Position numbers and translations under genes: made by a program | Shown: positions 32,894-62,536 of the stretch, one piece after another | Layout: every line of letters begins with the position of its first letter | Numbering within the stretch: the first letter of the stretch is position 1 | Virus record (IMG/VR): IMGVR_UViG_3300021963_004241 | Location: 47,182 to 111,181 of that record | Direction: 5' to 3' (one strand) | Source: a virus | DNA: 64,000 nt | The notes under the pieces: model-generated | What the model was told of the DNA's origin: nothing | Seen by the model: only the letters and a program-made list of their open reading frames with translations | Database searches by the model: none

Positions 32894-33868
32894 ATGATGA
32901 ATTACGAAAAAATTTCTTGGCAGTCTATAAAATCGTTTGGTCAACAAACAATGTTAGATCGTCCACTGTTCAACATAAGTTGGATACTGGGCAGGTTCTG
33001 CAATTACAAATGTAGCTACTGTTGGCCCTACGCCAGAAGCGATCAACAAGACTACCAATCACTTGATGTGTATAAGAATACAATTGATCAAATTAAAAGT
33101 CAAGCCCGTTCGAACGGATTCACAGAGTTCCATTGGAGCTTCAGCGGCGGCGAGCCAACTGCTTATAAACATCTAAATGACTTAGTCAAGTATTTGGACG
33201 AGAAGGAAAGTTCCTATCAAAGTGTGCATATGACTACTAATCTTAGTCCGGGAAGCAAATGGTGGAACACCTGGTGTAGTAATACTTGTTTATTACAAAG
33301 AAGAAGCATCACAGCCAGCTTTCACGAGGAGTTTGCCAAAGAGCAAGAGTTTGGAGACAAGTGTTTGCAACTAATGTATGAGCGTGTGCATGTAACTATC
33401 AATCAAGTAATGGTGCCTGATCGATTCTATGAGCTGTATGAACGCTGCGATCGATTCCACAGGAAAGGTATCAACGTCACATTGAAACCCCAAAGTGATC
33501 CTACTGCTAGCCGTGTAGTAGAAGGGTACACTGACGAAATGATAAAGATTATGCAAACAGGATTTCCCCAAAGATCTGAAGATGAAAATGTATATCAAAT
33601 CCGTTTAAACAACGGAACAACAGATTATTACTTTGATCAAGCAGAAAGATTTAATGCTTTTGGATTTAATAAATTTAAAAATTGGACCTGCAACAGCGGG
33701 TATCAAAGTCTAGTGATCAGAGGAAATGAAGTAAAACGTGCTTACAGTTGCAAAGAAGAACCCTTAGGAACTTTGGAGGATTTCCAAATTTTTAAAGAAC
33801 CTAAGGTCTGTGTAACAGAAACTTGTGTAAGTTCAGCAGACAGTAAAATACCAAAAAGAATACAATGA
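32894..33868 (+). CDS. Radical SAM protein 1
   Basis: A 324-residue radical SAM enzyme. The [4Fe-4S] motif CNYKCSYC (C36, C40, C43) is followed by SGGEP near residue 93. The C-terminus has further cysteines (WTCNSGYQSL, YSCKEEPLG and KVCVTETCVSS) that could bind an auxiliary cluster in a SPASM-like way. A second in-frame ATG (MNYE) is equally good as the start. It heads a plus-strand operon and overlaps the next gene by 4 bases. It is closely similar in layout to radical SAM 6 (43962-44936) and 8 (46010-46906). Substrate unknown. Confidence 0.93.
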   Translation: MMNYEKISWQSIKSFGQQTMLDRPLFNISWILGRFCNYKCSYCWPYARSDQQDYQSLDVYKNTIDQIKSQARSNGFTEFHWSFSGGEPTAYKHLNDLVKYLDEKESSYQSVHMTTNLSPGSKWWNTWCSNTCLLQRRSITASFHEEFAKEQEFGDKCLQLMYERVHVTINQVMVPDRFYELYERCDRFHRKGINVTLKPQSDPTASRVVEGYTDEMIKIMQTGFPQRSEDENVYQIRLNNGTTDYYFDQAERFNAFGFNKFKNWTCNSGYQSLVIRGNEVKRAYSCKEEPLGTLEDFQIFKEPKVCVTETCVSSADSKIPKRIQ

Positions 33869-34542
33869 TTTGGAATCAATACTTTAAATTAGATGAGCAG
33901 GGCAATCGCTGTATGGCCCAGCAGACCTATGAACCGTTAGTTAGCGAGGATGGCAAAACTTTTTGTAAAAACTACGATCAGGATAACGAATACCAAAAAT
34001 TAACAGGATACCCGAGACCTTTGTATACTAGAGAAGTAGTTGATTGGTTTTTTAATAACGAAATCAAATGGTTAGAATTTTTTAAAAATAAACCATATGC
34101 TCCAGAAGTTGTTGACATAGATTTAAAAAATAAAAAGATCTACATCAAATGGTATAACGAAACCTGTAATCAAATTATGTATGGTGGGAAGTTTTGGCCT
34201 AAAGATATTTGGAAACAACAGATAAAAGACATAATTAAAGATCAATACCGAGATGGTGTATACAAACTCACGATGTATCCGCACTGCCATTACATCGATG
34301 ATCAAAATAACATGAGGGCGATTGATTGGTACGGATGTGTTCCTGTATCAGACCCTTTTGTAGAAGCTGTTTACATGGACGGAATCATACACGAGACAGC
34401 TAAATTTAGATTAGACGAAACAGGAGATCAGATCGACCATAGATACAATCTTGAAATCATGTTCAAGAATAGTTTAAGATCTCACGTCCTCTGGGGAGAA
34501 GAAAACATGAGTTTCATTTATAAGGATCTCTTCAATGCCTAA
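33865..34542 (+). CDS. Kinase-fold-like protein A
   Basis: A 225-residue paralogue of the protein at 38195-38890. Both have an early SEDGKTFCKNY / SKDRKTFCQWY block, then PEVVDIDLKNKKIYIKW, and later a Y..(T/S)(M/L)(Y/H)P....(I/V)..... AIDW or SINY stretch that resembles the HxxxxN...D catalytic region of aminoglycoside/choline-kinase-like folds. The catalytic residues are not cleanly preserved, so this could be a pseudo-kinase or another fold. It overlaps radical SAM 1 and the next hydroxylase-like gene by 4-8 bases. Confidence 0.5.
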   Translation: MIWNQYFKLDEQGNRCMAQQTYEPLVSEDGKTFCKNYDQDNEYQKLTGYPRPLYTREVVDWFFNNEIKWLEFFKNKPYAPEVVDIDLKNKKIYIKWYNETCNQIMYGGKFWPKDIWKQQIKDIIKDQYRDGVYKLTMYPHCHYIDDQNNMRAIDWYGCVPVSDPFVEAVYMDGIIHETAKFRLDETGDQIDHRYNLEIMFKNSLRSHVLWGEENMSFIYKDLFNA

Positions 34543-35110
34543 GTATGTAGGTTCCACTGAAAATTTAATAGACTGGGGAAGCATTGTAAAAATATGCAAG
34601 TCCAGGAATGATGGTGACTTTAATTCTGTAACCACAGTAGTTGATAGATCTGAATCTAGCTGGCAGGAGGATCAGGATCTGTTAGGGTCTTATAGAGAAG
34701 TTATAAAAATTTGGACCGATGCTGGATATGCCTTAGAAAAAATACAGTGGTACGATTACTATCCAGGAACTCATTTTGATATAGAGGTACAAAATAAATT
34801 TGCAGATCTAGTCAATGCAGATCCAAGAAGGGTATTTGTTAGCGAACTATGGCCAGGCCGATGTGTTCCATACCACTGGGATGTAGAAGACAAAGAGAAA
34901 GAATGGTTAGCCGAAGGCGATCTAGTTCGTTACGTTTGCTTTATGGAGAAGCCTCAATTTGGTCATGTGTTGATAATTGAAAATGATATTTTTTATAATA
35001 CCAAACAACACGATGTATGGGAATGGGACAACTATAGGAATTGGCATGCTGGAACTAATTGTGGTTCAGAGCCCTATTACCTATTTCATTTTTTAGGAAA
35101 ACCTAGATGA
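34535..35110 (+). CDS. 2OG/Fe(II) oxygenase-like protein (Asp/Asn-hydroxylase type) A
   Basis: A 191-residue jelly-roll-like protein. VPYHWDVEDK supplies an HxD metal pair near residue 112 and NWHAGTNCG the distal His near residue 170. FGHVLIIENDIFYNTKQHD is the core strand pair. It is a tandem paralogue of the next gene (YVGS/YIGN start, HWDV, FGHV, WHAG.NCG). Such enzymes hydroxylate amino acid side chains or small molecules using 2-oxoglutarate. The 2OG-binding Arg is not certain. Confidence 0.68.
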   Translation: MPKYVGSTENLIDWGSIVKICKSRNDGDFNSVTTVVDRSESSWQEDQDLLGSYREVIKIWTDAGYALEKIQWYDYYPGTHFDIEVQNKFADLVNADPRRVFVSELWPGRCVPYHWDVEDKEKEWLAEGDLVRYVCFMEKPQFGHVLIIENDIFYNTKQHDVWEWDNYRNWHAGTNCGSEPYYLFHFLGKPR

Positions 35111-35652
35111 TAGAATACATAGGAAACTGTTCTCAGATAATAGATTGGGATGAAATAATAAAACAGTGTGCATCGACTGCTCCGGAATACATAGGACCTA
35201 GTCATAAGAAAAGTGATGACATTCCTGGTCTTAAAGAAGTCTCGGACTTATGGGACCATGCCGGATACAAAAATCTAAATGAAGGCGGCACCGTTGGATG
35301 GAGTATGTATCTTCCAGGTAAGCAATTTGATTCTTCAGTGATTGATAAGTTTTGTGGATTTTACAATATTGAAACTTATCGCACTGCCTGGATCAGTAGG
35401 ATAGATGTTGGACACTTTGCTCCTATACATTGGGATGTAAACGATCAGGAAGAACAATTATCTAAGTTACCTCCTATGGTCCGATATCATTGTCATATAT
35501 CAAAACCAAAGTTCGGACACGTTTTTATAGTAGAAGATCAATGCTTCTATAACAAAGCGCAAGGCGATACATTTAAATGGGCAGATAGGAGATACTGGCA
35601 CGCCGGATCTAACTGCGGACTAGAACCTAAATATATTTTGAATTTGTGGTGA
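35107..35652 (+). CDS. 2OG/Fe(II) oxygenase-like protein B
   Basis: A 181-residue tandem paralogue of the preceding protein, with FAPIHWDVND (HxD), FGHVFIVEDQCFYNKAQGD, and YWHAGSNCG (distal His). It overlaps the upstream gene by 4 bases. The two probably arose by local duplication and may act on related positions of one substrate or as a heterodimer (inference). Confidence 0.68.
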   Translation: MIEYIGNCSQIIDWDEIIKQCASTAPEYIGPSHKKSDDIPGLKEVSDLWDHAGYKNLNEGGTVGWSMYLPGKQFDSSVIDKFCGFYNIETYRTAWISRIDVGHFAPIHWDVNDQEEQLSKLPPMVRYHCHISKPKFGHVFIVEDQCFYNKAQGDTFKWADRRYWHAGSNCGLEPKYILNLW

Positions 35653-35655: not shown

Positions 35656-36111
35656 ATGTTTAAAGTTTGTATTACAGGTACAACTAGAGGACTTGGTAAA
35701 TTTTTAAAAGAATATTTTACCAAGAAGGGATATTTTGTTATTGGATTAAATCGAGGTGATGATATCGTTACTTCGGCAGTAGGTTGTAATTTGTTTATTA
35801 ATAATGCTTACGGCGGAAAATTGCAAATAGATCTTTTTAATGAATTACACTCTAGAATTAAAAATATAGTAGTAATGGGTAGCGTAGCCGCAGACTATCC
35901 CGATCCTAGTATGCCTGAATATAGTCAGAATAAAAAAGAATTAAAACAACGTGTATTAGAAGTAGCGAATACAAGTGACAGAAATATATTGTTATTAGAA
36001 CTAACAGGTGCAAGTTATAATGATCCAGAAACAATAGGTAAAGTTATTGATTTTTGGCTTGCTAATCCAACAGTAACTTGTGTATCGTTTATTCACGGAG
36101 AAAAGAATTGA
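35656..36111 (+). CDS. Short Rossmann-fold SDR-like protein A
   Basis: A 151-residue short-chain-dehydrogenase-like protein: ITGTTRGLGK (TGxxxGxG nucleotide loop) at residues 6-15, CNLFINNAYGG (the NNAG-type strand) near residue 48 and VVMGSVAADYP (catalytic Ser region) with YSQNKKEL (YxxxK) near residue 94. It is much shorter than a usual 250-residue SDR, so substrate loops are missing. It is a paralogue of the next gene. Confidence 0.75.
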   Translation: MFKVCITGTTRGLGKFLKEYFTKKGYFVIGLNRGDDIVTSAVGCNLFINNAYGGKLQIDLFNELHSRIKNIVVMGSVAADYPDPSMPEYSQNKKELKQRVLEVANTSDRNILLLELTGASYNDPETIGKVIDFWLANPTVTCVSFIHGEKN

Positions 36112-36704
36112 GTAAGAGGATAGTTATAACTGGTCACACCAGCGGCATTGGCAAATCTATATATGATGCTCTCAAGCAAGATAGCTGTAGAGAAATTGTA
36201 GGGTTGTCTCGCAGTAATGGATACGACATTGATAAAGATTTTGATCGAGTGGTCGAAGAAGCGTCTGGTTGTGAGTTGTTTATTAACAATGCCTACAGGG
36301 ACGGACAGCAGTTAAAGTTGCTACAAGCACTAAAGAATAAAGTTGATTCTATGGTAGTTATGGGCAGTGTCAGTAGATTTTATCCAGAAATTATACCTAC
36401 GCAATATGTGAAAGACAAGCAAGAGTTAGCAGAAGAATGTAGATTGATAAGTTTAGATCCAAACGGAATACCTATACTGCATTTAGATCTTAGTTTTATC
36501 GAAGGCACAACAGTTGACAATGATCCTGCTGCGTTTGTTAGTGATTATACCACTAGCCACGACGATATAATAGAGTCGATTGTGTTCTGGACTAGACATC
36601 CCGTTGTAAGACAAATGGAATTTAGATGGAAGCTGACTCCTTATCTAAGGGAGCAGCTATACAGGATTAATCCAAATTTAGATCCATCTAGGATAACGAT
36701 TTAA
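36108..36704 (+). CDS. Short SDR-like protein B, TTG start
   Basis: The start is assigned to TTG 36108, which overlaps the upstream TGA (TTGA) and has GGAG 7 bases before it; the product is 198 residues. ITGHTSGIGKS, CELFINNAYRDG and VVMGSVSRFYP with YVKDKQEL (YxxxK) match SDR blocks and the upstream paralogue. The C-terminal third is extra (SDYTTSHDDIIESIVFW). The stop overlaps the convergent GNAT-like gene by about 26 bases. Confidence 0.75.
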   Translation: MSKRIVITGHTSGIGKSIYDALKQDSCREIVGLSRSNGYDIDKDFDRVVEEASGCELFINNAYRDGQQLKLLQALKNKVDSMVVMGSVSRFYPEIIPTQYVKDKQELAEECRLISLDPNGIPILHLDLSFIEGTTVDNDPAAFVSDYTTSHDDIIESIVFWTRHPVVRQMEFRWKLTPYLREQLYRINPNLDPSRITI

Positions 36705-37232
36705 ATTTTCATAGAACTTATCAACTTTTATTTTCCAAACAGTTTGATCAGTTCCTCTATAAAATACATCTTTAACTTTTTCAACGATTCCTAGTTTTTC
36801 AAGAGTAGGGAAGTAAGTTCTGTGTACAAATCTTTGGCTAGCAACAATACTTTCATTAGAGGTTGCATAGATATTATCTCCAGCCCACTCAATGCAAGCA
36901 GGTAGGAAGAATTGATCGGTGATGTTTTGATGTTGACCTATTGCCACTCGAGCAGTCATCATTCCACCGTTTGATCTAGCACCTGTTAGTACACAGCATC
37001 TCGCCAACACTCTGTAACTACCCGTACCCATTACATCATCAAAAGTGTGAGAGACTACACTACCCACTGCTTGATCATTTTCGTAGAGTATCCAAGCTTT
37101 CCAATCTCTCTCGTTTTTAAAACAGTCTATCATTCTTTGTTGATTACTGTTATTGTAAAAACCTTTTTGGTCAGCTTTATTATAAAAGTCAGTTAGATCT
37201 AGATCAGAGGTCCATTCTAATAACTTGTACAT
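36678..37232 (-). CDS. Acetyltransferase-like (GNAT-type) protein
   Basis: I start it at ATG 37232 (MYKLLEWTSDLDLTDFYNKA), 9 bases after AAGGAAG; an ATG at 37241 is an alternative. The product is 184 residues. The order N-terminal helices, WILYENDQAVGSVVSHTFDD, then CVLTGARSNGGMMTARV suggests a GNAT acyltransferase, although the acetyl-CoA loop is not canonical. It overlaps the upstream radical SAM gene by 29 bases. Confidence 0.55.
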   Translation of the reverse strand: MYKLLEWTSDLDLTDFYNKADQKGFYNNSNQQRMIDCFKNERDWKAWILYENDQAVGSVVSHTFDDVMGTGSYRVLARCCVLTGARSNGGMMTARVAIGQHQNITDQFFLPACIEWAGDNIYATSNESIVASQRFVHRTYFPTLEKLGIVEKVKDVFYRGTDQTVWKIKVDKFYENLNRYPRWI

Positions 37233-38193
37233 TGGTAACATCTTCCTTGGATCTATTAAAATATTTGGTTCCGCACATATCACATTCTGCAATGGCACAA
37301 AATTTACTTAAATGAAATTTCATCACATCGCCGTCTGTGCAGTTTTCTAAATCTAGATAATTGTAATCGAGATACTTTTTCCAGTCCGGATCATCTAGAC
37401 TATTATGAAATTCTAACAATCTTTTTAGTGTGCCAAGTGCAGCACATTTATATATTTTCTTGTCTATTAGAAAACTGCACATAGGACTACTACATCCTTG
37501 CTTATACGAAAGATGTGGTAGTCCTGTTTGAAATGGTTTAGGTTTACCATCTTTCATATAATGATTCTTTTTAAATTCTCCTTGCGGTCTAAAGTGTACA
37601 AATATTTCGTTGTCGTGATAGTAAAGATCGTTGGGTTGTTCTCCCTGGCTGTAATCTTTATTAATATCAATCCACTTAGCAAAGAACGGATCGTTTCTAG
37701 GATTGTCTAATTTCATAAAGTCGTACAAGAATTTGTTAGCATCACCGGGTTTCAGACCTAACTGATTTACTAATTCGTCAACGCTGTTTGATATTTTCTC
37801 TGACATCGATGCATCAAATGATGAAAAATGATTGCACACAAATAGACTGCATTTATGTTTTCTTAGTAATTCAGAAACTTCATTTATTCTTTTAGACAAT
37901 AATGTTCCGTTTGTAGAGAACTGTATTGGAGTATCCGGATCAAGAGACCTTATGTATGAAAGGATAGCATCTATTTTATCAAGGTAATACAAGGGTTCGC
38001 CACCAATCATGCTGTAAAGTTCGATTTCAAACTTTTCTCTTGCTAATCGAATCCCCTCGAATATAGTTTCAAGGTCAGGATCGTTAGTTGTATCTCTGAT
38101 AGTATCACTACGAGTGTCACATTGGTTGCAAAACAAATTACATCTTGCACCGTAGTAGATGTCTAACATTTTTAAATATGGTTTGAATATCAT
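37204..38193 (-). CDS. Radical SAM protein 2
   Basis: A 329-residue radical SAM enzyme with CNLFCNQC (C18, C22, C25) and MIGGEPLYYL near residue 62. The second half has QGCSSPMCSF, YKCAALGT and the terminal CAIAECDMCG, a cysteine set compatible with a SPASM-type auxiliary cluster domain. It follows the kinase-fold-like gene by one base on the minus strand. Unlike its neighbours it has CNQCDT after the core motif. Substrate unknown, but SPASM-type enzymes usually modify peptides or proteins. Confidence 0.93.
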   Translation of the reverse strand: MIFKPYLKMLDIYYGARCNLFCNQCDTRSDTIRDTTNDPDLETIFEGIRLAREKFEIELYSMIGGEPLYYLDKIDAILSYIRSLDPDTPIQFSTNGTLLSKRINEVSELLRKHKCSLFVCNHFSSFDASMSEKISNSVDELVNQLGLKPGDANKFLYDFMKLDNPRNDPFFAKWIDINKDYSQGEQPNDLYYHDNEIFVHFRPQGEFKKNHYMKDGKPKPFQTGLPHLSYKQGCSSPMCSFLIDKKIYKCAALGTLKRLLEFHNSLDDPDWKKYLDYNYLDLENCTDGDVMKFHLSKFCAIAECDMCGTKYFNRSKEDVTNVQVIRMDL

Positions 38194-38194: not shown

Positions 38195-38890
38195 TTATTT
38201 GTATATGTTTTTGGCTTGTTCCATTAAATCGTCTGGAAAATTATTTTTAAAACTATCAAATGCCAGCATCTGTAAATCAATAAACGGAACAGGGCTATCG
38301 ACTGACAGTCCTAGTTTATCTATTTTTAAATAGAGATCCTTTTGTCTATCTTCACTGATGTGGCTCAACACACTGTTAATCGTGATCGGAGCTTCGTGAT
38401 CTTTGTAACAAAAGAAATAATTGATGCTTTTTAATTTTCCATTAATTACAAAGTAACTACTAGGGTGTAGACTATACTTATAGATTCCTAATTGTCTATG
38501 TGCTCTAAATATGTCAAGCATCTGTTCTTTCCAATCAGGAAGAACGCTGTCATAATTTTGTTCTACAGTCCCTGCCTGTTGCCAAAAATCATAACCGTCG
38601 ATTTCTAGATAGATTTTTCTTTTGTCTAGATCTATATTAAGTATCTTTGGTACCAAGTCCGGAAACGAATTACGCATCTGTGTAATATAATTTACTTCAC
38701 GCAACCATTTTTCTTCCATTAAAGAAGAATCTACGACTTGATTTTGTCCTCGATGATATTCAGTATCGTTATGATACCATTGGCAAAATGTTTTACGGTC
38801 TTTGCTTATAAGGCTTGTGTAGATTAAATTATTTCGGCAAAGGCCTTTGCCAGGAACATCATTGTAGTAATATTCGTAATCCGTATTCAT
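38195..38890 (-). CDS. Kinase-fold-like protein B
   Basis: A 231-residue paralogue of the protein at 33865-34542. Blocks are SLISKDRKTFCQWYHND, VPKILNIDLDKRKIYLEIDG and GIYKYSLHPSSYFVINGKLK followed by SINYFF. The last resembles a kinase-like catalytic strand-loop-strand but without a clear HxD. Both copies sit beside a radical SAM gene, suggesting a shared partner role. It begins with a TAAGTA box 6 bases before the ATG. Confidence 0.5.
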   Translation of the reverse strand: MNTDYEYYYNDVPGKGLCRNNLIYTSLISKDRKTFCQWYHNDTEYHRGQNQVVDSSLMEEKWLREVNYITQMRNSFPDLVPKILNIDLDKRKIYLEIDGYDFWQQAGTVEQNYDSVLPDWKEQMLDIFRAHRQLGIYKYSLHPSSYFVINGKLKSINYFFCYKDHEAPITINSVLSHISEDRQKDLYLKIDKLGLSVDSPVPFIDLQMLAFDSFKNNFPDDLMEQAKNIYK

Positions 38891-38917: not shown

Positions 38918-39733
38918 ATGATTAGAGGTATTGGCGGTAAGCCCTACATTAACTTAGATCCGTTTTTGGATGTAAAAGGATTTATAGATCTACACGCTGA
39001 GATCTGTAAAGGTTTTGCTTTGGCTAGAGATTATGCCAAGGAAGGAACTTGGATGGCACCTGGCTTTGATCAAAGCAGAGGTAGTTATGTTATCGATTGG
39101 AAACCAATCTACAAAGCGTTTGAAGAATATCAGAAACTACCCGATGATCATCCTATTAAGGTGCAGGGAAAAGAAATCTATCCTACAGACTTTAAAGATT
39201 ATAAACAGCGCAATTTATTCACACGTTATCTTAAGAGTGTGTTGGGTGCTAATGATCCTTACGTATATTATTTCCTATGGAATGAAGGCGACTGGAATGA
39301 ACGCAATGCTGAACGTCAGCTAACAGAAGAAAGTCGATTCTTTCCGGGCGTAGTAAGTTGGGTAAAAAGTTTGCAGGCACACGGTGTGATAGATCGTATT
39401 GGACGTGTGATATTCTTTCATTGCGACCATAACGGTAAGGCTTTTGAGCACAGAGACTTAGATGCTAAGAATGGTGTGTTTGAAAACGACTACTATACTC
39501 CTCATAACAATGAGTTTATACACATACGTTATCGTACCAAACGTGGGTTCTATATTTGGGATCCAGACACACAAGACAAACACTATGTAAACTCACATGC
39601 CGCTTTCTGGAACGACCAAGATTGGCACGGTGGAGAACACAGTTTAGAACAAGAATACGGACTAAGAATAGATTGTAAGTTTAGTAAAGAATTTAGAAAA
39701 ATTATAAACATAGATCATTTGGATTTTTATTAA
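38918..39733 (+). CDS. 2OG/Fe(II) oxygenase-like protein C
   Basis: A 271-residue protein. VIFFHCDHNGKAFEHRDLD (HRD as HxD) near residue 173 is followed by HIRYRTKRGFYIWD and DWHGGEHSLEQEYGLRID (distal His, then an Arg that could bind 2OG). This is the double-stranded beta-helix order of a 2-oxoglutarate oxygenase. The N-terminal half is helical and unique. It heads an operon of two radical SAM genes and a prolyl-hydroxylase-like gene. Its TAA overlaps the next ATG (TAATG). Confidence 0.65.
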   Translation: MIRGIGGKPYINLDPFLDVKGFIDLHAEICKGFALARDYAKEGTWMAPGFDQSRGSYVIDWKPIYKAFEEYQKLPDDHPIKVQGKEIYPTDFKDYKQRNLFTRYLKSVLGANDPYVYYFLWNEGDWNERNAERQLTEESRFFPGVVSWVKSLQAHGVIDRIGRVIFFHCDHNGKAFEHRDLDAKNGVFENDYYTPHNNEFIHIRYRTKRGFYIWDPDTQDKHYVNSHAAFWNDQDWHGGEHSLEQEYGLRIDCKFSKEFRKIINIDHLDFY

Positions 39734-49801: not shown

Positions 49802-49809
49802 CATAAACG

Positions 49810-49815: not shown

Positions 49816-49833
49816 CATCATTATAGTAGCACA

Positions 49834-49839
49834 TAAATA
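49834..49839 (+). promoter_or_regulatory. Late-promoter-like TAAATA box (plus)
   Basis: CATAAATATTTCT precedes the ATG at 49845. Confidence 0.5.
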
Positions 49840-56060: not shown

Positions 56061-57084
56061 GATTGTTAATTTAGAAACATTTGCTGTTTCACAAGACACC
56101 GTTGAAGATTTATTAAAGCAAGAGATAGGTGATAGCAAACATATTTTAGGGTTGTTGTTATTAGATGGATTTCTTTTTAATAACAACTGTAACATAGATC
56201 TAATAGACAACAGCATCGATCTGCATGTAGTTGCAGGCATAGTTAACGACCAACATCAATACAAGAATATAATTCATTTTGATTTTATGATGCACACTGT
56301 TTTTATGGGATATAAAAATAAAGAAACATATACCTGGAATAAAAATTCTAATAAATTTTTATTTCTAGGAGGAGTTCCTAACAGGCCCAACAGAGCAGGT
56401 CTCTTGAATAAATTTAGAAAAAGCGATTTATTAAAAGATTCAGTGTATACATTTTTTAAACCCTGGACTGAAGAACAAGAACAATGGTGTAAAAATAATG
56501 TAGATGGATATGATGAGATAATCGAGCAGTCCATAGACGATGTTTATTCCTCATCTAAGCATTACGGAACTAGTCCTTCCCAGAACGAGTGGACAAAGAA
56601 TATAGGATGGATCGAACCAACAGTTTATAAGAACACCGTATTAAGCATAATTTCAGAAGGTGTGAGCAGCAGTGACTTAACTTCTAGATATCTTACAGAA
56701 AAGACCTATAGAGTATTTGTTCAACGCCATCCATTTTTACATGCTTCTACTCCGGAGATGTTTAGATACATTAAAGAATTAGGATTTAAAACTTTTGAAG
56801 AATATATGCTAATAAAAGATTATGCATACCTAGCCGACGAAGATGAGAGATTAGAAGCCATAGTAAAAAACACAAAGTATTTTTTAGAAAATTATCAAAG
56901 ATTCGAAGATGATATAGAAAATGATATCAACTATAACTACGATCATTTTTTTAAACTGGCAAAAAGTAATGCAGACAAGCTGCTATACATAAAAGATAAA
57001 TTCAACATAGAACAACACGAAATAGACAAGTGGTTTAATCAGACAGGGTTCTCACATTTGATAAGGGCATATAACAATGTATAA
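56053..57084 (+). CDS. Glycosyltransferase-like protein
   Basis: The start is ATG 56053, 8 bases inside the previous gene (343 residues). The rear block LTEKTYRVFVQRHPFLHAST near residue 205, followed by PEMFRYIKELGFKTFEEYM, is a hallmark of an exostosin/fucosyltransferase-like group common in phages and surface-glycan clusters. The first half has KFLFLGGVPNRPNRAGLLNK. It overlaps the next gene by 8 bases. Donor and acceptor unknown. Confidence 0.65.
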   Translation: MYKIVNLETFAVSQDTVEDLLKQEIGDSKHILGLLLLDGFLFNNNCNIDLIDNSIDLHVVAGIVNDQHQYKNIIHFDFMMHTVFMGYKNKETYTWNKNSNKFLFLGGVPNRPNRAGLLNKFRKSDLLKDSVYTFFKPWTEEQEQWCKNNVDGYDEIIEQSIDDVYSSSKHYGTSPSQNEWTKNIGWIEPTVYKNTVLSIISEGVSSSDLTSRYLTEKTYRVFVQRHPFLHASTPEMFRYIKELGFKTFEEYMLIKDYAYLADEDERLEAIVKNTKYFLENYQRFEDDIENDINYNYDHFFKLAKSNADKLLYIKDKFNIEQHEIDKWFNQTGFSHLIRAYNNV

Positions 57085-57748
57085 CAGTGCAGAAATCTTA
57101 TCTAGTCAATATGTAGATTTTAATAAGGTACTAGAACTGAAACAGATATGTGCCGACGAAGTTTCTAAAATAGACTGGAAAGAGTTAAAGGATTTCCTAC
57201 TGACCCAACCAAAGGATGACGAAACTAATGACGGTCCTTCTTGGATGGTACTGAAAAGCAATGTTGAAGAAGGAATGCAAAGTTACGAAGATAGTAGATC
57301 ATTGCAAGAAGTTATTAACAATGACCCGAAGCATGATCTAGGAACTTGGTTATGTGTAACTTTTCTAGATAATGAATGGAACAAGCAAACAAATAATCCT
57401 AGAGTTGTAGAACACTTTAAGAACACGATTAAACATATAGAAACTCTTTCTGGATTAATACATGCAAGTGTACATTTTGTCAGCCCTAAATTTCTGATAG
57501 TCAAACATACTGATTCTTCGAGCCTTTATTCTATGTTGTTAACTTTTTCTATATCGAAAAGTAATCCGGAAAAAGTTACTCTACACATGAGCACTGGTGA
57601 GGAATTTAATTTTAAAGATAGAGAATTTTTTACATTTATTCCGCAGATAGAACATTCGTCATCTAATCTCTCCGACAGCGACTGGATTTTTATGATGTTG
57701 AGAATAGACAAAACCAAATTTAAACAAGATGAAAATACAATCAAATAA
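57077..57748 (+). CDS. Divergent 2OG/Fe(II) oxygenase-like protein G
   Basis: A 223-residue protein. FLIVKHTDSSSLYSMLLTFS (HxD near residue 140), FNFKDREFFTFIPQIEHSSS (distal His near residue 197) and NLSDSDWIFMMLRID follow the Asp/Asn-hydroxylase layout, but no 2OG-binding Arg is obvious. It could be inactive or use another ligand. It overlaps its neighbours by 8 and 20 bases. Confidence 0.5.
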   Translation: MYNSAEILSSQYVDFNKVLELKQICADEVSKIDWKELKDFLLTQPKDDETNDGPSWMVLKSNVEEGMQSYEDSRSLQEVINNDPKHDLGTWLCVTFLDNEWNKQTNNPRVVEHFKNTIKHIETLSGLIHASVHFVSPKFLIVKHTDSSSLYSMLLTFSISKSNPEKVTLHMSTGEEFNFKDREFFTFIPQIEHSSSNLSDSDWIFMMLRIDKTKFKQDENTIK

Positions 57749-58784
57749 CGACTGGGATCCTTTAAAAGAAATAGTAGTAGGTCGAGCAGATAAAGCTCGA
57801 GTCCCCACAGTTGACCTTAGCACTATGAGCATGAGTTATACTAACTATGCCATTGAAAAAGTCAAGCCTTTAGAAGGAGAGTATCCGCAATGGTTAATTG
57901 ATGAAGCCAACGAAGATGCCGACGAGTTATCTTCGGTACTAGAACAAGCAGGGGTCAAGGTACATAGACCAGAACTAATAGATCATTCTAAAATATTTTC
58001 TACACCAGACTGGACTACTACTGGTTGGTATACCTGGTGTCCTAGAGATCTGTTATTACCATTAAACAATCTAATGATTGAAACTCCTAGTCCTTGTCGC
58101 AGCAGACTATTTGAAACTAGAGCATATCACAACATAATGATAGATGCAGTTAAAGACGGAACTGAATGGATCGCTGCTCCGAAACCTAGATTATTAGACG
58201 AGTCATATCAGTTTAAAGAGTTGAGTAAGCCCAGTCTCAATAACCTAGAACCTATATTTGATGCTCCTAATTGTATAAGATTAGGACGAGATATTTTGTT
58301 TCAGATATCTAATACAGGTAATTGGTTAGGATTCCAATGGTTAAAAAATACGCTAGAGCCTAGGGGTTATAGATTACACGCAGCGGAACATATCTACAGT
58401 TTCGCACACTTTGACAGCACTATCATTCCTCTTCGTCCTGGTTTGGTGTTGTTAAACAGTACAAGAGTAACACCGGAGAACTGTCCTAAATTATTTGAGA
58501 AGTGGGATAAGATTTATTTTAAAGATGTTAATGTCAATCCTGTTACACAATCGGGTCCGGGCAGTATTAGTCCGTGTAGTCCTTACATCGGAATGAACAT
58601 TCTAAGTATCGATCAGGACACTGTAATAGTAGGAAAAGATCAAACTAATTTAATAAAAGTATTAGAGCAGCACAAGTTCACGGTCATACCAACACGAATG
58701 AGACACGCACAAACTCTTAGTGGGGGGTATCATTGTGCTACATTAGATCTAGCAAGACAAGGAAATCTCGAGGATTATTTTTAA
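57729..58784 (+). CDS. Amidinotransferase (glycine/inosamine amidinotransferase family)
   Basis: A 351-residue protein of the AGAT/StrB1 amidinotransferase fold. WDPLKEIVVGRADKARVP starts the domain. GWYTWCPRDLLLPL matches the conserved CPRD block, AHFDSTIIPLRPGLVL the catalytic His block (HxDxTxxxLRPG), and GGYHCATLDLARQG the catalytic Cys block near residue 335. These enzymes move an amidino group from arginine to an amine, giving guanidino compounds such as guanidinoacetate or streptidine. In this operon it could guanidinylate an amino sugar or amino acid. Confidence 0.9.
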   Translation: MKIQSNNDWDPLKEIVVGRADKARVPTVDLSTMSMSYTNYAIEKVKPLEGEYPQWLIDEANEDADELSSVLEQAGVKVHRPELIDHSKIFSTPDWTTTGWYTWCPRDLLLPLNNLMIETPSPCRSRLFETRAYHNIMIDAVKDGTEWIAAPKPRLLDESYQFKELSKPSLNNLEPIFDAPNCIRLGRDILFQISNTGNWLGFQWLKNTLEPRGYRLHAAEHIYSFAHFDSTIIPLRPGLVLLNSTRVTPENCPKLFEKWDKIYFKDVNVNPVTQSGPGSISPCSPYIGMNILSIDQDTVIVGKDQTNLIKVLEQHKFTVIPTRMRHAQTLSGGYHCATLDLARQGNLEDYF

Positions 58785-60226
58785 TGCAGAATACTATCTC
58801 TAGATACATGATCAGTGATAATTTTATAGGATTACCTTTACATAAGGGGCACCAGTACGATAAAAAAGATTTAGTTTCTAAAATCGATCTTTGGAAATAT
58901 GTATTGAAATATAAATGTGATGCACAGTCTGGTGAATCTATTCTCATAGGAATGCAGACACTCAATATTGATTATCTTGCAGTGTGTTTCGCTGCGGCAG
59001 AATTGTCTTTAAAGATAGTGATAGTAGACTACACTAGAAATGATGATTTTTCAGACGTTACATATTACGATCCAAAGACAAAAATATTATCACCTATAGA
59101 TATATTTTTGCACGACTTTTCAAAAAAAGAAATCGAAGAAAAGCCAAAAGCATTTTCTAAATTTATATTTTTTTCAAATTGCTCAAATAGAACCTACAGT
59201 ATAAAAGAGATAGATTTTACTGTTGATGATAAACAGTTTGAAGTTTCTAAGAATATTTTCCCTAACCCATCCGACGTAGTAATGCGATGCACTAGCAGCG
59301 GTACTACAGGAACACCTAAAATAGTAGAACATACACACGAATTCTTGTATAAAGTTTCTATGAGAAATTCAAAAAAGTTTTCTGGAAAATGTTTACACGT
59401 AAGAAATCTAAATCACGGAAGTAGTTTAGCTGTGTATCTTTTACCAACATTAATTAGCGACAAGGTAACTGAACACCTATTCTACGATCTAGATGAACTG
59501 CTTCCAATGGAAGATTTTATAAACGATATCTACGAATTTAAAAATGATCTAGAGTTTGTTATATTCCCTTATCCGTTTATGATAGATAGGTTCATAGATG
59601 TTAGCATAAAAAATAACATCCAATGGCCTAATTTAAATGTACAAACTTTATCATACATACAAGATAAATCAAAACAGGCCATCGCACAGGGAGTATTTAG
59701 ATCCATTACTAGCATATTTGGTTCTAATGAAACTAGTGGACCAATTTTTACAGTAGTCATTGATAAATCAAATGTATATCAGGATTCTGCGATATTTGAT
59801 CACGTAGATGATTTTTATAAAATTAAAATTTATCAAGGCGGGCTGCTAGGAGTTACCTTGCCAGTATATGATACAGAAATAATAACCAACGATCTTTTTG
59901 AGCAACAGGGAGTGTTTTACAAACATAAGGGCAGAAGTGATCTAGTTAAAATTAATGGCGAAGTATTAGACATAAAAATTGTTAATGATTTTAACGATAA
60001 AAATACTAACTCATACCTAGTCACAGACACTGTAAAAAATTGTCTATACCTAGCATTTTGGGACGATAAAGATTCCTACATACTAAACGAGTATACTAAC
60101 TTTTTTAAAAACAATTTCAAACGGATAGAGATAGTAAAGACCTCAGTATTAAATAAACATAAATTCTTAACAGGTATTAAGATAGATAACGAATTGTTAA
60201 GAGAATACTTTAGAAATTATGTTTGA
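58784..60226 (+). CDS. Adenylate-forming (ANL superfamily) ligase-like protein
   Basis: The start is ATG 58784, overlapping the upstream TAA (TAATG); 480 residues. CTSSGTTGTPKIVEHTH near residue 170 is the AMP-binding P-loop (core A3), FGSNETSGP near residue 312 corresponds to core A5, and KGRSDLVKINGEVLDI near residue 388 to A7/A8. Such enzymes activate a carboxylate as an acyl-adenylate for thioester, amide or ester formation. It lacks a visible carrier protein partner in the window. It could activate an amino or hydroxy acid for transfer to a sugar or peptide. Confidence 0.88.
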   Translation: MQNTISRYMISDNFIGLPLHKGHQYDKKDLVSKIDLWKYVLKYKCDAQSGESILIGMQTLNIDYLAVCFAAAELSLKIVIVDYTRNDDFSDVTYYDPKTKILSPIDIFLHDFSKKEIEEKPKAFSKFIFFSNCSNRTYSIKEIDFTVDDKQFEVSKNIFPNPSDVVMRCTSSGTTGTPKIVEHTHEFLYKVSMRNSKKFSGKCLHVRNLNHGSSLAVYLLPTLISDKVTEHLFYDLDELLPMEDFINDIYEFKNDLEFVIFPYPFMIDRFIDVSIKNNIQWPNLNVQTLSYIQDKSKQAIAQGVFRSITSIFGSNETSGPIFTVVIDKSNVYQDSAIFDHVDDFYKIKIYQGGLLGVTLPVYDTEIITNDLFEQQGVFYKHKGRSDLVKINGEVLDIKIVNDFNDKNTNSYLVTDTVKNCLYLAFWDDKDSYILNEYTNFFKNNFKRIEIVKTSVLNKHKFLTGIKIDNELLREYFRNYV

Positions 60227-60461
60227 TGAACATCTCAATAAAAGCAAAGTTACATACCTAGAGCATCTATCCTGGGCGTTTATTTCTGGAATAAGATTAA
60301 TCTATGCGGGCATAGCTAGTATTATCCACGGAGTATTTCCTTCGTTGTTCAATAGCACAGCACCTAGGACAGTGATCGACATTTATCATTCTCATCTAAC
60401 AGATCATCCAAATACAGAATATCAGGATTTAATAGAAAAGGCCAGAAAGAAAAATGATTGA
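60219..60461 (+). CDS. DUF6356 family small membrane protein
   Basis: An 80-residue protein with one central hydrophobic segment (WAFISGIRLIYAGIASIIHG) followed by VFPSLFNSTAPRTVIDIY; this order (HL.FA...G..L..AG.A...H..FP..F...) matches the DUF6356 family of unknown function. It should span or dip into the membrane once. It overlaps both neighbours by 8 bases. It may anchor the operon products at the membrane (inference). Confidence 0.72.
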   Translation: MFDEHLNKSKVTYLEHLSWAFISGIRLIYAGIASIIHGVFPSLFNSTAPRTVIDIYHSHLTDHPNTEYQDLIEKARKKND

Positions 60462-60939
60462 ATATGTAAGGAACATAACAAACTTTTGGGATGGTGATTT
60501 AAAAACCCACGAGTTTGCAAGGCAAGTTCCGTTTGTTGCTAAGAATTTTGATCATTTGGATAGGAAGTTTTATAATTCTGGTTATCTATTGCAGAGCTTC
60601 AATGACGAATTAGTCAATGCTGAAGAATTTAAAAAAGTGTTGGATGTTGTAGAAGGTTCTGTTAGTTGGACTTGCATACTTCCAAATTTAATATTGCCTA
60701 CGCATTCAGACACATTCTATACCCTACGAGAACAACATAGTGTAAACATAGACAGATGTTTTAGATATCTAATCTTTTTAGAAGATTGGACATTTGGGCA
60801 TTATGTGGGATTTGAAAAAATTAATATAACAAATTGGAAAGCCGGTGATGTTTGGATCTTTGATAGCGAGGAAACACACTACGGTGTTAATGCCAGCAAT
60901 GTTCCTTTTTATTCTTGTCAAGTGAGTTCATTCAAATGA
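60454..60939 (+). CDS. 2OG/Fe(II) oxygenase-like protein H
   Basis: A 161-residue jelly-roll protein: LILPTHSDTFYTL (HxD) near residue 88, CFRYLIFLEDWTFGHYVGFE, NWKAGDVWIFDSEETHYGVN (distal His) near residue 147. It is a paralogue of the proteins at 34535, 35107 and 51458 (shared MIEY start, RY....E...FGH, GD...F.S...H). The terminal Arg is missing. Its stop overlaps the next ATG (ATGA). Confidence 0.68.
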   Translation: MIEYVRNITNFWDGDLKTHEFARQVPFVAKNFDHLDRKFYNSGYLLQSFNDELVNAEEFKKVLDVVEGSVSWTCILPNLILPTHSDTFYTLREQHSVNIDRCFRYLIFLEDWTFGHYVGFEKINITNWKAGDVWIFDSEETHYGVNASNVPFYSCQVSSFK

Positions 60940-61676
60940 AATTGGGAATTGCAGGTTACGGCATTGTGGGAAAGGCCACACACAAAGGTTTACTTAAAAA
61001 TAGTCCTGTAGTAATACACGATTTATTAACAGGCACAACTATTGAAGACTTGTATGTGTGTAACTATGTGTTCTTTTGTATTCCAACTGACACTGACGCG
61101 AGCATACAAATACTAGTTGACGAAATCAAACGCCTTAAGGCAGTTAATCCTAGTTGCGTTATTATTATTAGAAGTACTGTTCCTGTAGGTACGTGTAAAT
61201 CTATTGAAAAAATAATCAATGATAAAATTTACTATATGCCAGAATTCCTGCGTGAACGTATGTGGGAAGAAGATTGTTTCGATCGCCCTATAATTGTAGG
61301 TAGCGATAGCCAGGCAGTTCCTATTTGGTTACAGGGAGAGGAATGTATATTTTGTACATTAGAAGAAGCAGAAGTTATTAAGATGTTGAGCAACAACATG
61401 GCTGCGGCAAGAGTTGTATTTGCAAATCACATGTATGAACTAAGCAAGGCAGCCGGTGCAAATTACGATAACGTACTAAATGCATACCTTCAGGTTAATC
61501 ACGATCAAAACTATTTAGAAGTAAATGAGAACATGCGAGCATTCGGAGGCAAGTGCTTACCAAAAGATTTAGATTTTTTGATCAATACTTTTAAGCAGCT
61601 AGGTATTCCGCAGACTTATTTTACAGCAATGAAAGAAGACAACCAACTATGGCCAGTAACCGTAAGAAAATCCTAA
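60936..61676 (+). CDS. Short nucleotide-sugar (UDP-glucose-type) dehydrogenase
   Basis: The start is ATG 60936, overlapping the upstream TGA; 246 residues. GIAGYGIVGKA (GxGxxG) at residues 3-13 is the NAD loop, RSTVPVG near residue 87 and YMPEFLRER near residue 100 are dehydrogenase blocks, and AFGGKCLPKDLDF near residue 202 carries the catalytic Cys. UGD enzymes oxidise UDP-hexoses to uronic acids. The usual C-terminal UDP-binding domain (about 120 residues) is absent, so it may work differently or with a partner. Confidence 0.85.
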   Translation: MKLGIAGYGIVGKATHKGLLKNSPVVIHDLLTGTTIEDLYVCNYVFFCIPTDTDASIQILVDEIKRLKAVNPSCVIIIRSTVPVGTCKSIEKIINDKIYYMPEFLRERMWEEDCFDRPIIVGSDSQAVPIWLQGEECIFCTLEEAEVIKMLSNNMAAARVVFANHMYELSKAAGANYDNVLNAYLQVNHDQNYLEVNENMRAFGGKCLPKDLDFLINTFKQLGIPQTYFTAMKEDNQLWPVTVRKS

Positions 61677-62536
61677 TCACAGGTGCGTGTGGACTAATTG
61701 GTCGAGAATTGTGCAATCAACTCAGCTTGCATCACGATGTTACGGCTGTGGATAACAATCAACGTTTTAGAGATTACACTCCTAAAAACTGTATCTATGT
61801 CAGATCTAATTTGTCGGAATACTTAGAACAAACTAGGAATACATTTGATATAATATATCATTTAGCAGCAACTAATGGTACCAAATATTTTTATAGTCAA
61901 CCCAATGATGTGTTGCGTAACAATGTAACACTAGACTTATCTATTTTTAAATTTGCAGAATCTAATCCTAAGTGTAAATTAATCTATGCAAGTAGTAGCG
62001 AAGTTGTATCAGGCTCATATATTTTCCCCACTCCTGAAATTGTTGATATTACTATAGGCAATCTACACAATCCCAGATGGAGTTACATGCTGCCCAAGAT
62101 GCTTGCAGAAAACTATCTATTCAATAGTCCTATTGATTTTTTAATTATTAGATTTTTTAATGTCTACAGCGAACACAGCGGCCAGGGACATTTTTTCAAA
62201 GATATAGTTGAAAAAATTAAAAATGAAAATTACGAGTTGATAGGTTCAACTGAAACAAGAAGTTTTTGTTATGTTGAAGATGCTGTAGACGCAATGATTA
62301 AAATTTCTAATGTATCTGGGCAAGTTGTTAATATCGGGTCTGATGAAGAAATAAAAATAGTCGATGCTGCAAACTTGATCGCACAAAGATTAGGAATTAA
62401 AAATATCAATTGGATTACTAAAGACAGCCTTCCTGGTAGCACATCGAGAAGAACTCCGGATATAGAAAAACTTAAATCCTATTATCCAGAGTTCAAACCT
62501 AGATCGTTTAAAACGATTATTGATAAAATCTTATGA
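61649..62536 (+). CDS. NAD-dependent nucleotide-sugar epimerase/dehydratase
   Basis: A 295-residue extended SDR. ILITGACGLIGREL (TGxxGxxG) at residues 9-22, IYHLAATNG, ASSSEVV near residue 115 and YMLPKMLAEN (YxxxK) near residue 147 are all in place. RRTPDIEKLK near the C-terminus fits the family. It interconverts or dehydrates a nucleotide sugar and overlaps the upstream dehydrogenase by 28 bases. It ends the module; its stop overlaps the convergent fibre gene by 6 bases. Confidence 0.92.
   Translation: MASNRKKILITGACGLIGRELCNQLSLHHDVTAVDNNQRFRDYTPKNCIYVRSNLSEYLEQTRNTFDIIYHLAATNGTKYFYSQPNDVLRNNVTLDLSIFKFAESNPKCKLIYASSSEVVSGSYIFPTPEIVDITIGNLHNPRWSYMLPKMLAENYLFNSPIDFLIIRFFNVYSEHSGQGHFFKDIVEKIKNENYELIGSTETRSFCYVEDAVDAMIKISNVSGQVVNIGSDEEIKIVDAANLIAQRLGIKNINWITKDSLPGSTSRRTPDIEKLKSYYPEFKPRSFKTIIDKIL

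Follow-up and report, generated by a model that had tools for sequence, protein, structure and literature searches.

What a phage might build with eleven radical SAM proteins and nine 2OG-oxygenase-like proteins encoded in one block is the question raised by positions 32894-62536 of the window, the 64,000-nucleotide stretch analysed here. It comes from a 111-kb fragment of an uncultured T4-superfamily phage, probably a large one of the jumbo class. Beside these proteins, the module encodes a StrB1-like amidinotransferase together with sugar, ligase and PLP-type enzymes. Coding sequence accounts for 99.7% of the module, whose intergenic bases total 99 and whose largest gap is 39 bases. An earlier note on this DNA had described about 30 kb of alternating, coupled operons, and this arrangement is borne out by seven alternating strand blocks in which 29 of 36 gene junctions overlap or abut, counting the junction to the adjoining gene STRUCT. 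When each gene was compared with its nearest relative, pN/pS ranged from 0.09 to 0.65 in 37/37 genes (the 36 of the module plus STRUCT); many of the pairs are saturated at synonymous sites. The answer preferred here, held tentatively and with a little less than even confidence, is a cytoplasmic phage pathway whose product would be a sugar-like decoration, hydroxylated and in many cases guanidinylated, that is probably destined for the tail fibre.

Radical SAM and 2OG-oxygenase-like proteins

The eleven radical SAM genes span 18.6 kb. All 11 proteins lie above the PF04055 cut-off in a six-frame search and 10 do in a protein scan, where the product of 39733-40881 reaches 28.9 vs 29.5 bits; the failure of profile searches for most CxxxCxxC proteins, which would have spoken against the earlier note, did not occur. 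The cysteines of this motif are kept in all 11 families (98-100% of rows), and each family has four or more additional cysteines that at least 90% of rows share; after removal of rows with unusual length or poor identity, the alignments comprise 3 to 81 sequences per family. The count of eleven read from the letters therefore stands.

Five of the families belong to a core found in 16/16 related records: rSAM1 (32894..33868, + strand; PF04055 43.4 bits), with conserved cysteines at 36/40/43 and a SPASM-like C-terminal set at 266/286/306/311; rSAM4tw (41477..42886, +; PF04055 47.5 and SPASM 23.4 bits), which served as the probe for relatives; rSAM8 (46010..46897, -; PF04055 52.8 bits); rSAM9sp, with a C-terminal SPASM domain (46890..47879, -; PF04055 40.5 and SPASM 25.7 bits); and rSAM10tw (47875..49191, -). 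The proteins kin2 and 'GNAT' are likewise present in all 16 of these records. The periphery of the module varies across the 16 records: rSAM2 (37204..38193, -; PF04055 46.5 bits, extra conserved cysteines) occurs in 9, rSAM3tw (39733..40881, +) in 8, rSAM6 (43962..44936, +; 45.4 bits) in 11, rSAM7 (44914..46017, -; 48.9 bits) in 7 and rSAM11 (50509..51447, +; 34.2 bits) in 8, while rSAM5 (42886..43968, +; 42.1 bits) is the best match in 0/16. Three proteins exceed the 170-bit cut-off of NF033640 (N_Twi_rSAM), the NCBIfam model of twitch domain-containing radical SAM proteins, namely rSAM3tw (222 bits), rSAM4tw (403) and rSAM10tw (333); eight radical SAM proteins were scanned, and the other five stay below it.

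Eight to nine 2OG-oxygenase-like proteins had been claimed, and nine candidates were found. Pfam cut-offs are passed by three: the prolyl-4-hydroxylase-type OG4 (40878..41477, +; PF13640 44.6 bits; 12/16 records) and the Asp/Arg-hydroxylase-type OG5 (49845..50516, +; PF05118 25.8 bits, cut-off 22.6; 15/16) and OG7 (54408..55163, -; PF05118 30.7 bits; 11/16). The fast-evolving, Asp/Arg-hydroxylase-like OG8 (57077..57748, +; 0/16) falls just under the PF05118 cut-off (21.9 against 22.6 bits). The other five give no Pfam match and are termed 2OG-like because their HxD...H triad is invariant: OG1 (34535..35110, +; 15/16), its paralogue OG2 (35107..35652, +; 12/16), OG6 (51458..51964, +; 12/16) and OG9 (60454..60939, +; 9/16), which form one group with the triad in 26/26 aligned sequences, and OG3 (38918..39733, +; 15/16), with H178xD180...H237 in 13/13. 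Among these five, profile comparison gave one match, a weak one to AtsK (E 0.013).

SPASM/twitch radical SAM enzymes mostly modify peptides, and PF05118 and PF13640 include protein hydroxylases. That the typical substrates of 2OG enzymes of the Asp/Arg-hydroxylase type and of SPASM radical SAM enzymes are peptides and proteins was counted against a sugar decoration. It is conceivable, though unlikely, that the enzymes act directly on side chains of virion proteins, as a large RiPP-like fibre maturation without any sugar. The extra SPASM/twitch-like cysteines in all 11 radical SAM families and the PF05118 and PF13640 members of the module speak for such remodelling, as does the persistence of the core radical SAM genes in records where sugar genes are not seen. 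Against it, PqqD was found in 0/11 records, which may be incomplete, and gaps of at most 39 bases leave no room for a precursor gene within the module, although a distant precursor or diverged elements may exist. The modified peptide that the earlier note had listed among the possible products becomes less likely on the same two grounds.

Amidinotransferase, sugar and fold-predicted genes

A guanidine step is the best supported part of the predicted decorating pathway. AmidT (57729..58784, +; 10/16 records) matches StrB1, the inosamine-phosphate amidinotransferase of streptomycin biosynthesis (PDB 1bwd), over its full length with 304.7 bits (E 8.8e-90), against 209 for HsvA, 204 for SxtG and 200 for AGAT among the solved amidinotransferases. 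Profile comparison favours the StrB1 type by 412 against 268, and the conserved His/Asp/Cys residues (H227, D229, C336) are invariant in 7/7 sequences. Unlike StrB1, AmidT stands in a phage context, and the class assignment is not meant to imply a shared acceptor. Relatives of AmidT occur in 435 viral stretches; within 8 kb of AmidT in the best 80 of these, an OG9-like 2OG protein is present at 77/80 loci and a PLP-type protein at 73/80. GTx occurs at 51/80 of these loci, in part at low scores. At one locus (L243), the AmidT cassette lies beside a GXM-type methyltransferase, FkbM, two glycosyltransferase-type matches and a CTP_transf/ManP-isomerase protein.

The neighbours of AmidT in the module are of uneven clarity. 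Of the sugar, ligase, PLP and amidinotransferase set claimed earlier, the amidinotransferase holds strongly, and the nucleotide-sugar dehydrogenase UGD (60915..61676, +; PF00984 60 and PF03721 30.6 bits; 6/16 records) and the NAD-dependent epimerase/dehydratase EPI (61649..62536, +; PF01370 109 bits; 6/16) are confirmed too. The AMP-dependent-ligase-like ANL (58733..60226, +; PF00501 27.4 bits, cut-off 29.9) and the PLP protein (55203..56060, +; 9/16) are weak matches; the latter is a short fold-type-I aminotransferase-like protein with SxSK invariant in 5/5 sequences and a weak structure-database match to 2o1b (E 0.06). A DUF6356 small protein (60219..60461, +; PF19883 54.7 bits; 3/16) follows ANL, and GTx (55984..57084, +) is glycosyltransferase-like by eye, with no Pfam match. 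Since AmidT is not seen in 6/16 records, nor UGD and EPI in 10/16, guanidine and those sugars would not belong to the core product.

Outside the module, a tryptophan-halogenase homologue (26303..27979, -; PF04820 299 bits), known from 64 phage records, is a possible accessory. Together with ANL and the kinship of AmidT to streptomycin biosynthesis, this homologue, which also lies at 5/80 AmidT loci (best 80 of 435), lends something to the idea that infection yields a soluble small molecule (an antibiotic-like compound, a signal or an anti-defence agent) through AMP-ligase, PP-loop and halogenase steps. That idea is nevertheless very improbable: ANL occurs in just 3/16 and the halogenase homologue in 5/16 related records, a Pfam scan of the 36 module proteins, many of which match nothing, gave no transporter or carrier protein, and PADLOC, run on 10 module proteins, returned only weak viperin-type hits for rSAM1.

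For several other genes, folds were predicted. The product of kin1 (33865..34542, +; no Pfam match; 14/16 records) has a protein-kinase-like fold in its AF2 model (pLDDT 93), with kinase-like folds in the PDB, VIA with Z up to 13.4 over 185 residues, and a Foldseek hit of the same kind (E 2e-5); the predicted fold does not imply activity. Its diverged paralogue kin2 (38195..38890, -) shares about 20% identity with it, by alignment only. GT_MT (53300..54430, -; no Pfam match; 14/16) is predicted to have a GT-A-like fold over residues 10-227 (AF2 model pLDDT 87; Foldseek top E 3e-5). The nearest folds of this domain include protein glycosyltransferases: LH3 (Z 10.6 over 160 residues, to its residues 293-542, which we take not to be its catalytic transferase domain) and the PBCV-1 capsid glycosyltransferase (Z 10.3). 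As sugar-nucleotide cytidylyl- and uridylyltransferases also reach Z 9, the fold does not fix an activity; the C-terminal part is Rossmann/methyltransferase-like by weak matches only (E 0.007). The GT-A-like fold and the StrB1-like amidinotransferase indicate sugars, which tells against direct protein remodelling. Weighed against a sugar decoration were the absence of Pfam matches for GT_MT and GTx, the position of the LH3 match, the weak C-terminal matches of GT_MT and the weak resemblance of rSAM11 to BtrN (profile E 0.003).

The remaining genes comprise the short SDR-like SDR1 (35656..36111, +; PF00106 21.6 bits, under the cut-off of 26.6; 13/16 records) and four proteins without a Pfam match that were assigned by eye: SDR2 (36108..36704, +; 12/16), whose N-terminus resembles SDR1, the acetyltransferase-like 'GNAT' (36678..37211, -), the SGNH-hydrolase-like GDSL1 (51961..52689, +) and its paralogue GDSL2 (52699..53316, +).

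A QueC-like N-type ATP pyrophosphatase (49124..49834, -; 14/16 records) carries a PP-loop SGGxDSA and four conserved cysteines, its motif residues being invariant in 15/15 sequences; it matches phrog_1550 over 73 residues (E 1.2e-8) and gives no match in a PF06508 search. This protein raises the possibility that the substrate is DNA, with the module tailoring a base of 7-deazaguanine or hydroxymethyl type in the phage genome. A QueD-type PTPS match is present in 10/12 records, the phage studied here included, as well as in CP220; GTP cyclohydrolase I is encoded on the window's contig; and dADG has been cited as a constituent of DNA in certain Campylobacter phages. On the window's contig, however, PTPS lies about 23 kb and GTP cyclohydrolase about 75 kb from the module, two records (G004 and G016) lack the QueC-like gene yet keep PTPS, PF06508 is found in 0/12 records, and PF00303, the thymidylate-synthase-type hydroxymethylase expected for thymine hypermodification, in 1/11, possibly as a plain thymidylate synthase. 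DNA hypermodification is accordingly given little credence. One ORF looks DpdA-like by eye but has no Pfam match.

Distribution and comparison with known phage systems

The module is viral. Relatives of rSAM4tw were found in 99 viral contigs, whereas a scan of 84,980 cellular genomes, which detects close relatives only, yielded one 3.5-kb contig; within that reach, the case of the same module in a bacterial chromosome without phage genes did not arise.

According to the earlier note, so dense a set of such enzymes was not known from any phage described. That claim falls, since 11 and 12 radical SAM proteins had already been reported for the Campylobacter phages CP220 and CPt10, including a cluster of 10-12 genes with five radical SAM proteins plus an amidinotransferase (Timms, 2010; PMC2853527). 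At E 0.001, 11 radical SAM matches were obtained in CP220 and 11 in a further Campylobacter phage, WX1, several of them neighbouring an amidinotransferase, with baseplate or tail genes annotated nearby, and the likeness extends in CP220 to profile matches of rSAM9sp (E 1.5e-27, to a radical SAM protein) and AmidT (1e-63). By contrast, the 2OG, kinase-fold, QueC-like, PLP and GT_MT profiles found no match in the stretches of 33 kb covered in CP220 and WX1. No description was found of one 30-kb block in which the radical SAM genes are joined by nine 2OG-like genes as well as kinase-fold and PP-loop genes.

The cyanophage S-SCSM2R (PQ898602) keeps an inosamine-type amidinotransferase, an OG9-like gene and an rSAM11-like gene (rSAM11 profile E 7.8e-43) together, amid annotated glycosyltransferases and an aminotransferase-type gene. 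It differs from the module in having several annotated glycosyltransferases, and its whole genome gives 2 radical SAM matches, so that the five-enzyme core cannot be complete there; the kin, GNAT, QueC-like, OG3, OG5 and GT_MT profiles have no match in the 25.6 kb covered.

In pelagimyophages, the host recognition cluster, bounded by VrlC and gp14, is hypervariable and contains tail fibres along with sugar genes; two genomes differ there by radical SAM cassettes (Zaragoza-Solas, 2020; PMC7029224). As a variable region with a tail fibre it resembles the module; HTVC008M differs in giving 1 radical SAM match, and a tblastn search with its VrlC and gp14, which may be too diverged, gave no match in 18 records. 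This cluster also holds 63/162 LPS-related pelagimyophage proteins (PMC7029224), a point that, with the presence of UGD and EPI in the module, fits a product that is added to glycans or lipids of the host, where it would keep other phages out or help release. Such modification of the host surface is judged improbable, as the PF02397 initiating sugar transferase, the PF01943 Wzx-type flippase and family-2 glycosyltransferases (GT2) were each found in 0/11 records, which may be incomplete; diverged families or host enzymes could serve instead. In weighing the preferred decoration, the absence of the initiating transferase, the flippase and PqqD was counted in favour of it and that of GT2 against it.

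Tail fibre and the proposed decoration

At the end of the module lies STRUCT (62531..63430, -), a fibre-like protein with a weak match to phrog_36881 (E 2.4e-5) that it shares with another protein of the contig bearing Mtd_N. Weak relatives of STRUCT occur at 25/80 AmidT loci (best 80 of 435), the phage studied here among them, and at 80 bits in 0/16 related records. Among the 11 records with an Mtd_N gene and known module limits, this fibre gene lies less than 5 kb from the module in 9, where 2.6 are expected (simulated P 1e-5). The exceptions are the window's own phage (G000), at 38.5 kb, and G019, at 14 kb. The linkage would suit direct protein remodelling as well. The distance in the window's own phage and the weak PHROG match that ties STRUCT to fibres were counted against a fibre target. 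Shared late expression or insertion hotspots might also bring fibre genes and module together. In mycobacteriophages, a phage-encoded glycan on virion proteins is described (Freeman, 2023, as cited in PMC12619734), which, as far as the citing text goes, resembles the attachment that would take place here.

The guanidino and hydroxylated groups that the earlier note had proposed fit the enzymes found; from the gene content we infer, in addition, a sugar-like substrate, an order of steps, a fibre target and the benefit of the module. In the preferred pathway, a fixed core would make and attach a sugar-like scaffold, through five radical SAM enzymes with auxiliary Fe-S cysteines, kin2, usually kin1, OG1, OG3 and OG5, the QueC-like PP-loop enzyme, the GT-A-like glycosyltransferase and, in relatives, a small methyltransferase-like protein recognized by eye. 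A swappable periphery would then tailor this scaffold: the PLP-type enzyme may introduce an amine, which the StrB1-like amidinotransferase would convert to a guanidine with arginine as donor, OG9 would hydroxylate the product, and UGD and the epimerase would provide sugars. The likeliest target would be the tail fibre, a receptor-binding protein whose gene lies at the end of the module. The proximity of fibre genes in most of the related phages examined suggests that the virions themselves receive an unusual chemical decoration and, with the fibre as target and the periphery swappable, each phage population would present a chemically different fibre surface.

Composition and phage setting of the module

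The region at window positions 32894-62536 is a real, conserved and phage-borne biosynthetic island. The earlier note had counted eleven radical SAM proteins in it, and all eleven matched PF04055 when each claimed protein was checked against Pfam; for the weakest, at 39733-40881, the protein scan gave 28.9 bits (cut-off 29.5), and a six-frame search placed it above the threshold. Against NF033640, a curated twitch-type family with a cut-off of 170, eight of these proteins were scanned, of which three reached 222, 403 and 333 bits and five remained below the threshold. Every radical SAM family retains the three cysteines of CxxxCxxC together with at least four further conserved cysteines, in agreement with the expectation for an auxiliary Fe-S cluster. 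The same note had put the 2OG-oxygenase-like proteins at eight to nine, a number that stands in part on Pfam and in part on a motif: among nine such proteins, three exceed the Pfam cut-off, one falls just under it and five are recognised through the HxD...H pattern, which is invariant in their aligned sequences (26/26 and 13/13).

Among the remaining enzymes, the nucleotide-sugar dehydrogenase UGD and the epimerase are secure in Pfam, the AMP-ligase scores under its Pfam cut-off, and the PLP-type, aminotransferase-like protein is recognised by a fully conserved SxSK together with one weak match. The labels kin, SDR, GNAT, GDSL, GTx, GT_MT and STRUCT are names coined in this analysis. Profile searches against the PDB returned no match for the QueC-like protein or the oxygenase-like OG3, a best E of 0.45 for the glycosyltransferase-like GT_MT, only general radical SAM matches for the rSAM8 group, 7wzv as the best match of rSAM11, and for kin1 3u4z at E 0.028, with kinases from E 0.27 on. 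PADLOC, run on 10 module proteins, gave only weak viperin-type hits of rSAM1.

The module is 99.7% coding, is arranged in seven alternating strand blocks, and 29 of its 36 gene junctions overlap or abut. The window forms the final 64 kb of a linear virus record of 111,181 bases, whose B-type DNA polymerase is closest to those of the jumbo phages Phosso (50.9%, 469 kb) and Atu_ph07 (46.6%, 490 kb). The contig also encodes families of baseplate and tail-fibre proteins as well as an array of 30 tRNAs at 22054-31542 (minus strand), and a second record of the same phage (G010) carries the same module at 99-100% by gene and extends about 12 kb further right into phage-like genes. Taken together, these features mark the record as one fragment from the genome of a T4-superfamily phage, probably a jumbo one. 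A bacterial island was rejected as the source, since tRNAs, fibre-like and other phage genes flank the module; the bacterial chromosome with no phage genes around the module, named earlier as the adverse case, did not turn up in a cellular scan that reaches close relatives.

Two further observations concern the surrounding sequence. Within the tRNA array, positions 26303-27979 (minus strand) encode a homologue of flavin-dependent tryptophan halogenases (PF04820, 299 bits) with relatives in 64 phage records, all below 60% identity; in the pelagimyophage HTVC008M, a homologue lies between the terminase genes. VirX1 is a viral halogenase. At 5756-7002 (minus strand), neighbouring ORFs resemble by eye an IscA-type carrier, an IscU-type scaffold and an Fe/Mn superoxide dismutase, which might assist or protect the numerous Fe-S enzymes.

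Conserved core and variable periphery

The twitch-type protein rSAM4tw (41477), used as a probe, has 99 relatives among viral contigs; the 80 that scored best were taken as loci and share 65-100% identity. Among 84,980 cellular species, the same probe, which detects close relatives only, found a single relative on a 3,537-base contig. This 3.5-kb contig of a Thermoplasmata MAG carries relatives of rSAM4tw, rSAM7 and rSAM8 in a gene order that matches some phages, and is probably a mis-binned viral piece contaminating a public genome. In isolated phages, rSAM4tw relatives occur in three records, all below 25% identity, and searches with the QueC-like protein and kin2 matched no isolated phage. 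A close isolate was also sought with window 1-25000; this gave 63 records, which among the matches listed covered the tRNA stretch only.

Each of 27 larger viral records contains 6-16 radical SAM matches. The same gene set had been proposed for a search in other phage genomes, and related sets were mapped in 16 of the 26 other longer records (G001 partly; G003, G006, G008, G009, G014, G021-G023, G025 and G027 left out), where a family counts as present if its best match in the sequence analysed for a record scores 80 bits or more. All 16 carry rSAM1, rSAM8, rSAM9sp, rSAM10tw, kin2 and the 'GNAT' protein, as well as rSAM4tw, for which 16/16 holds by construction because the records were picked for carrying it. 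OG1, OG3 and OG5 are each present in 15 records, and kin1, the QueC-like protein and GT_MT each in 14. Frequencies then fall from SDR1 (13/16) through AmidT (10/16), OG9 and PLP (9/16) and UGD and EPI (6/16) to ANL and DUF6356 (3/16), and OG8, rSAM5 and STRUCT were found in none of the 16 at 80 bits. A 199-residue protein, methyltransferase-like by eye (L112:1546-2145 and 14 other records), occurs in 15 of the 16; the window's contig yielded no copy. These counts point to a fixed core with a changing periphery. For all 37 genes compared, pN/pS lies between 0.09 and 0.65 (highest for STRUCT), with synonymous change saturated in many pairs.

The best classified part of the module, as judged by sequence comparison, is the amidinotransferase AmidT, which among solved amidinotransferases matches StrB1 (1bwd) at 304.7 bits, followed by HsvA (209), SxtG (204) and AGAT (200). 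Of the 435 viral stretches that its profile matched, the best 80, among which close relatives are over-represented, were examined for neighbours: OG9 lies within 8 kb per side (where available) in 77 loci, PLP in 73, GTx in 51, rSAM11 in 41 and rSAM3tw in 40. In more distant phages (for instance L218 and L223) the cassette is reduced to PLP, AmidT, two OG9-like genes and an epimerase, and adjoins genes read as tail-sheath and neck genes. In L243 it stands beside a GXM-type methyltransferase, an FkbM methyltransferase and a CTP_transf/ManP-isomerase protein, with nucleotide-sugar and family-8 glycosyltransferase matches also among its neighbours. One related phage has two divergent amidinotransferase copies (33-35% identity) flanking UGD/EPI genes (L011:108-1091 and L011:3994-4977).

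Fibre linkage and the class of product

The fibre-gene domain Mtd_N (PF18454) was matched in 17 of 24 records. Where both a match and known module limits are available, it lies within 5 kb of the module in 9 of 11 records, against 2.6 expected at random (simulated P 1e-5). This statistic covers 17 records, the window's and 16 others, and omits G003 and G009 (pattern same as G002), G010, and G027-G030, which lack computed module limits; among the six records that lack an Mtd_N match, four stop no more than 320 bases from a module edge. The exceptions are G019 and the window's own phage, in which the nearest Mtd_N gene is 38.5 kb from the module; the module's neighbour in the window, the fibre-like STRUCT (62531..63430, minus strand), shares only phrog_36881 with that distant fibre. 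Mtd has a role in tropism. A guessed fibre motif, GTYG...VP, occurred in 0 of 25 and was dropped, the Mtd_N family being tested instead, and a reverse transcriptase for a diversity-generating element was found in 0 of 21 records. A pelagimyophage study (PMC7029224) describes a host-recognition cluster whose radical SAM cassettes differ between two genomes, the same idea as a module near a fibre.

Predicted structures add likeness at the level of fold, which does not prove activity. The GT_MT model (pLDDT 87) is GT-A-like over residues 10-227, its nearest folds being LH3 residues 293-542 (Z 10.6, 160 residues, 3.3 A) and the PBCV-1 capsid glycosyltransferase (Z 10.3), with nucleotidyltransferases such as GlmU next (Z 9); the matches of its C-terminal part to methyltransferases are all weak. 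The kin1 model (pLDDT 93) has a protein-kinase-like fold (Z 13.4, 185 residues) of no clear subfamily.

Most likely, the module provides the fibre with a tailored, sugar-like decoration, in many cases guanidine-bearing; support for this class of chemistry is moderate, and the fibre as target is suggested by position. Other products were weighed through marker families, in scans where diverged members may escape the models and records are possibly incomplete: PqqD, GT2, the initiating sugar transferase and the Wzx flippase were each matched in 0 of 11 records, the thymidylate-synthase-type PF00303 in 1 of 11, PTPS in 10 of 12 phage records and QueC (PF06508) in 0 of 12. Collectively, these outcomes speak against a standard RiPP cluster, for whose separate short precursor gene the module's gaps (99 bases in total, the largest 39) leave no room, and against a lipid-linked envelope polysaccharide. 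Modification of DNA is a minor rival, favoured by PTPS and opposed by the QueC and PF00303 results; CP220, a Campylobacter phage, matched both QueC PF06508 and PTPS. Outside the module, a GTP cyclohydrolase I (L001:3812-4651), a 513-residue protein that is DpdA/TGT-like by eye (L001:7947-9488) and a PTPS/QueD match (window 9055-9696) were observed, and the window's phage may, on these sequence matches, modify its own DNA with a 7-deazaguanine.

Known phage clusters and implications

Radical SAM clusters have a precedent in Campylobacter phages (Timms 2010; PMC2853527), and such cassettes have been on record in T4-like phages since 2010, with no established function. Other studies deal with Campylobacter phages (PMC3322345, PMC12398825), list radical SAM among the common genes of Tasman Sea phages (PMC7150976) or form further related literature (PMC12619734, PMC6884629, PMC8226683, PMC11360552). 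At E 0.001, radical SAM matches number 11 in CP220, 11 in WX1, 6 in K566, 2 in the cyanophage S-SCSM2R and 1 in HTVC008M. S-SCSM2R resembles the module in carrying AmidT (E 8.5e-127), OG9-like (E 1.2e-12) and rSAM11-like (E 7.8e-43) genes amid annotated glycosyltransferases. In Vibrio phage K566 (L168), five genes match the twitch radical SAM profile (four annotated as radical SAM, one as hypothetical); a PagP-like gene and ribonucleotide reductase lie close by. The Campylobacter phage WX1 has a radical SAM gene annotated BtrN in its cluster (L170:19147-19992) and an aminotransferase nearby, which the PLP profile did not match. No phage description combining radical SAM and 2OG sets was recognised among the openly licensed papers searched, and the island surpasses in size and diversity those radical SAM cassettes for which a description was found.

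A further-reaching and rather unlikely reading is that of a phage pathway resembling those of natural products, whose product would be a synthesised ligand or shield on the tail fibre and not a free antibiotic. A fixed radical SAM core would build this product and exchangeable cassettes (guanidine, halogen, extra hydroxyls, acyl group) would vary it, so that recombination of chemistry would act beside protein sequence change in the evolution of host range.

The conserved core, the swap-in guanidinylation cassette and the linkage to a receptor-binding fibre turn the puzzle of 2010 into testable questions, and for biocatalysis the module provides a large set of uncharacterised radical SAM and 2OG enzymes. 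If the decoration reading is right, phages would use small-molecule chemistry to tune their contact with hosts, and many of the viral genes now classed as 'auxiliary metabolic' would instead serve virion decoration.
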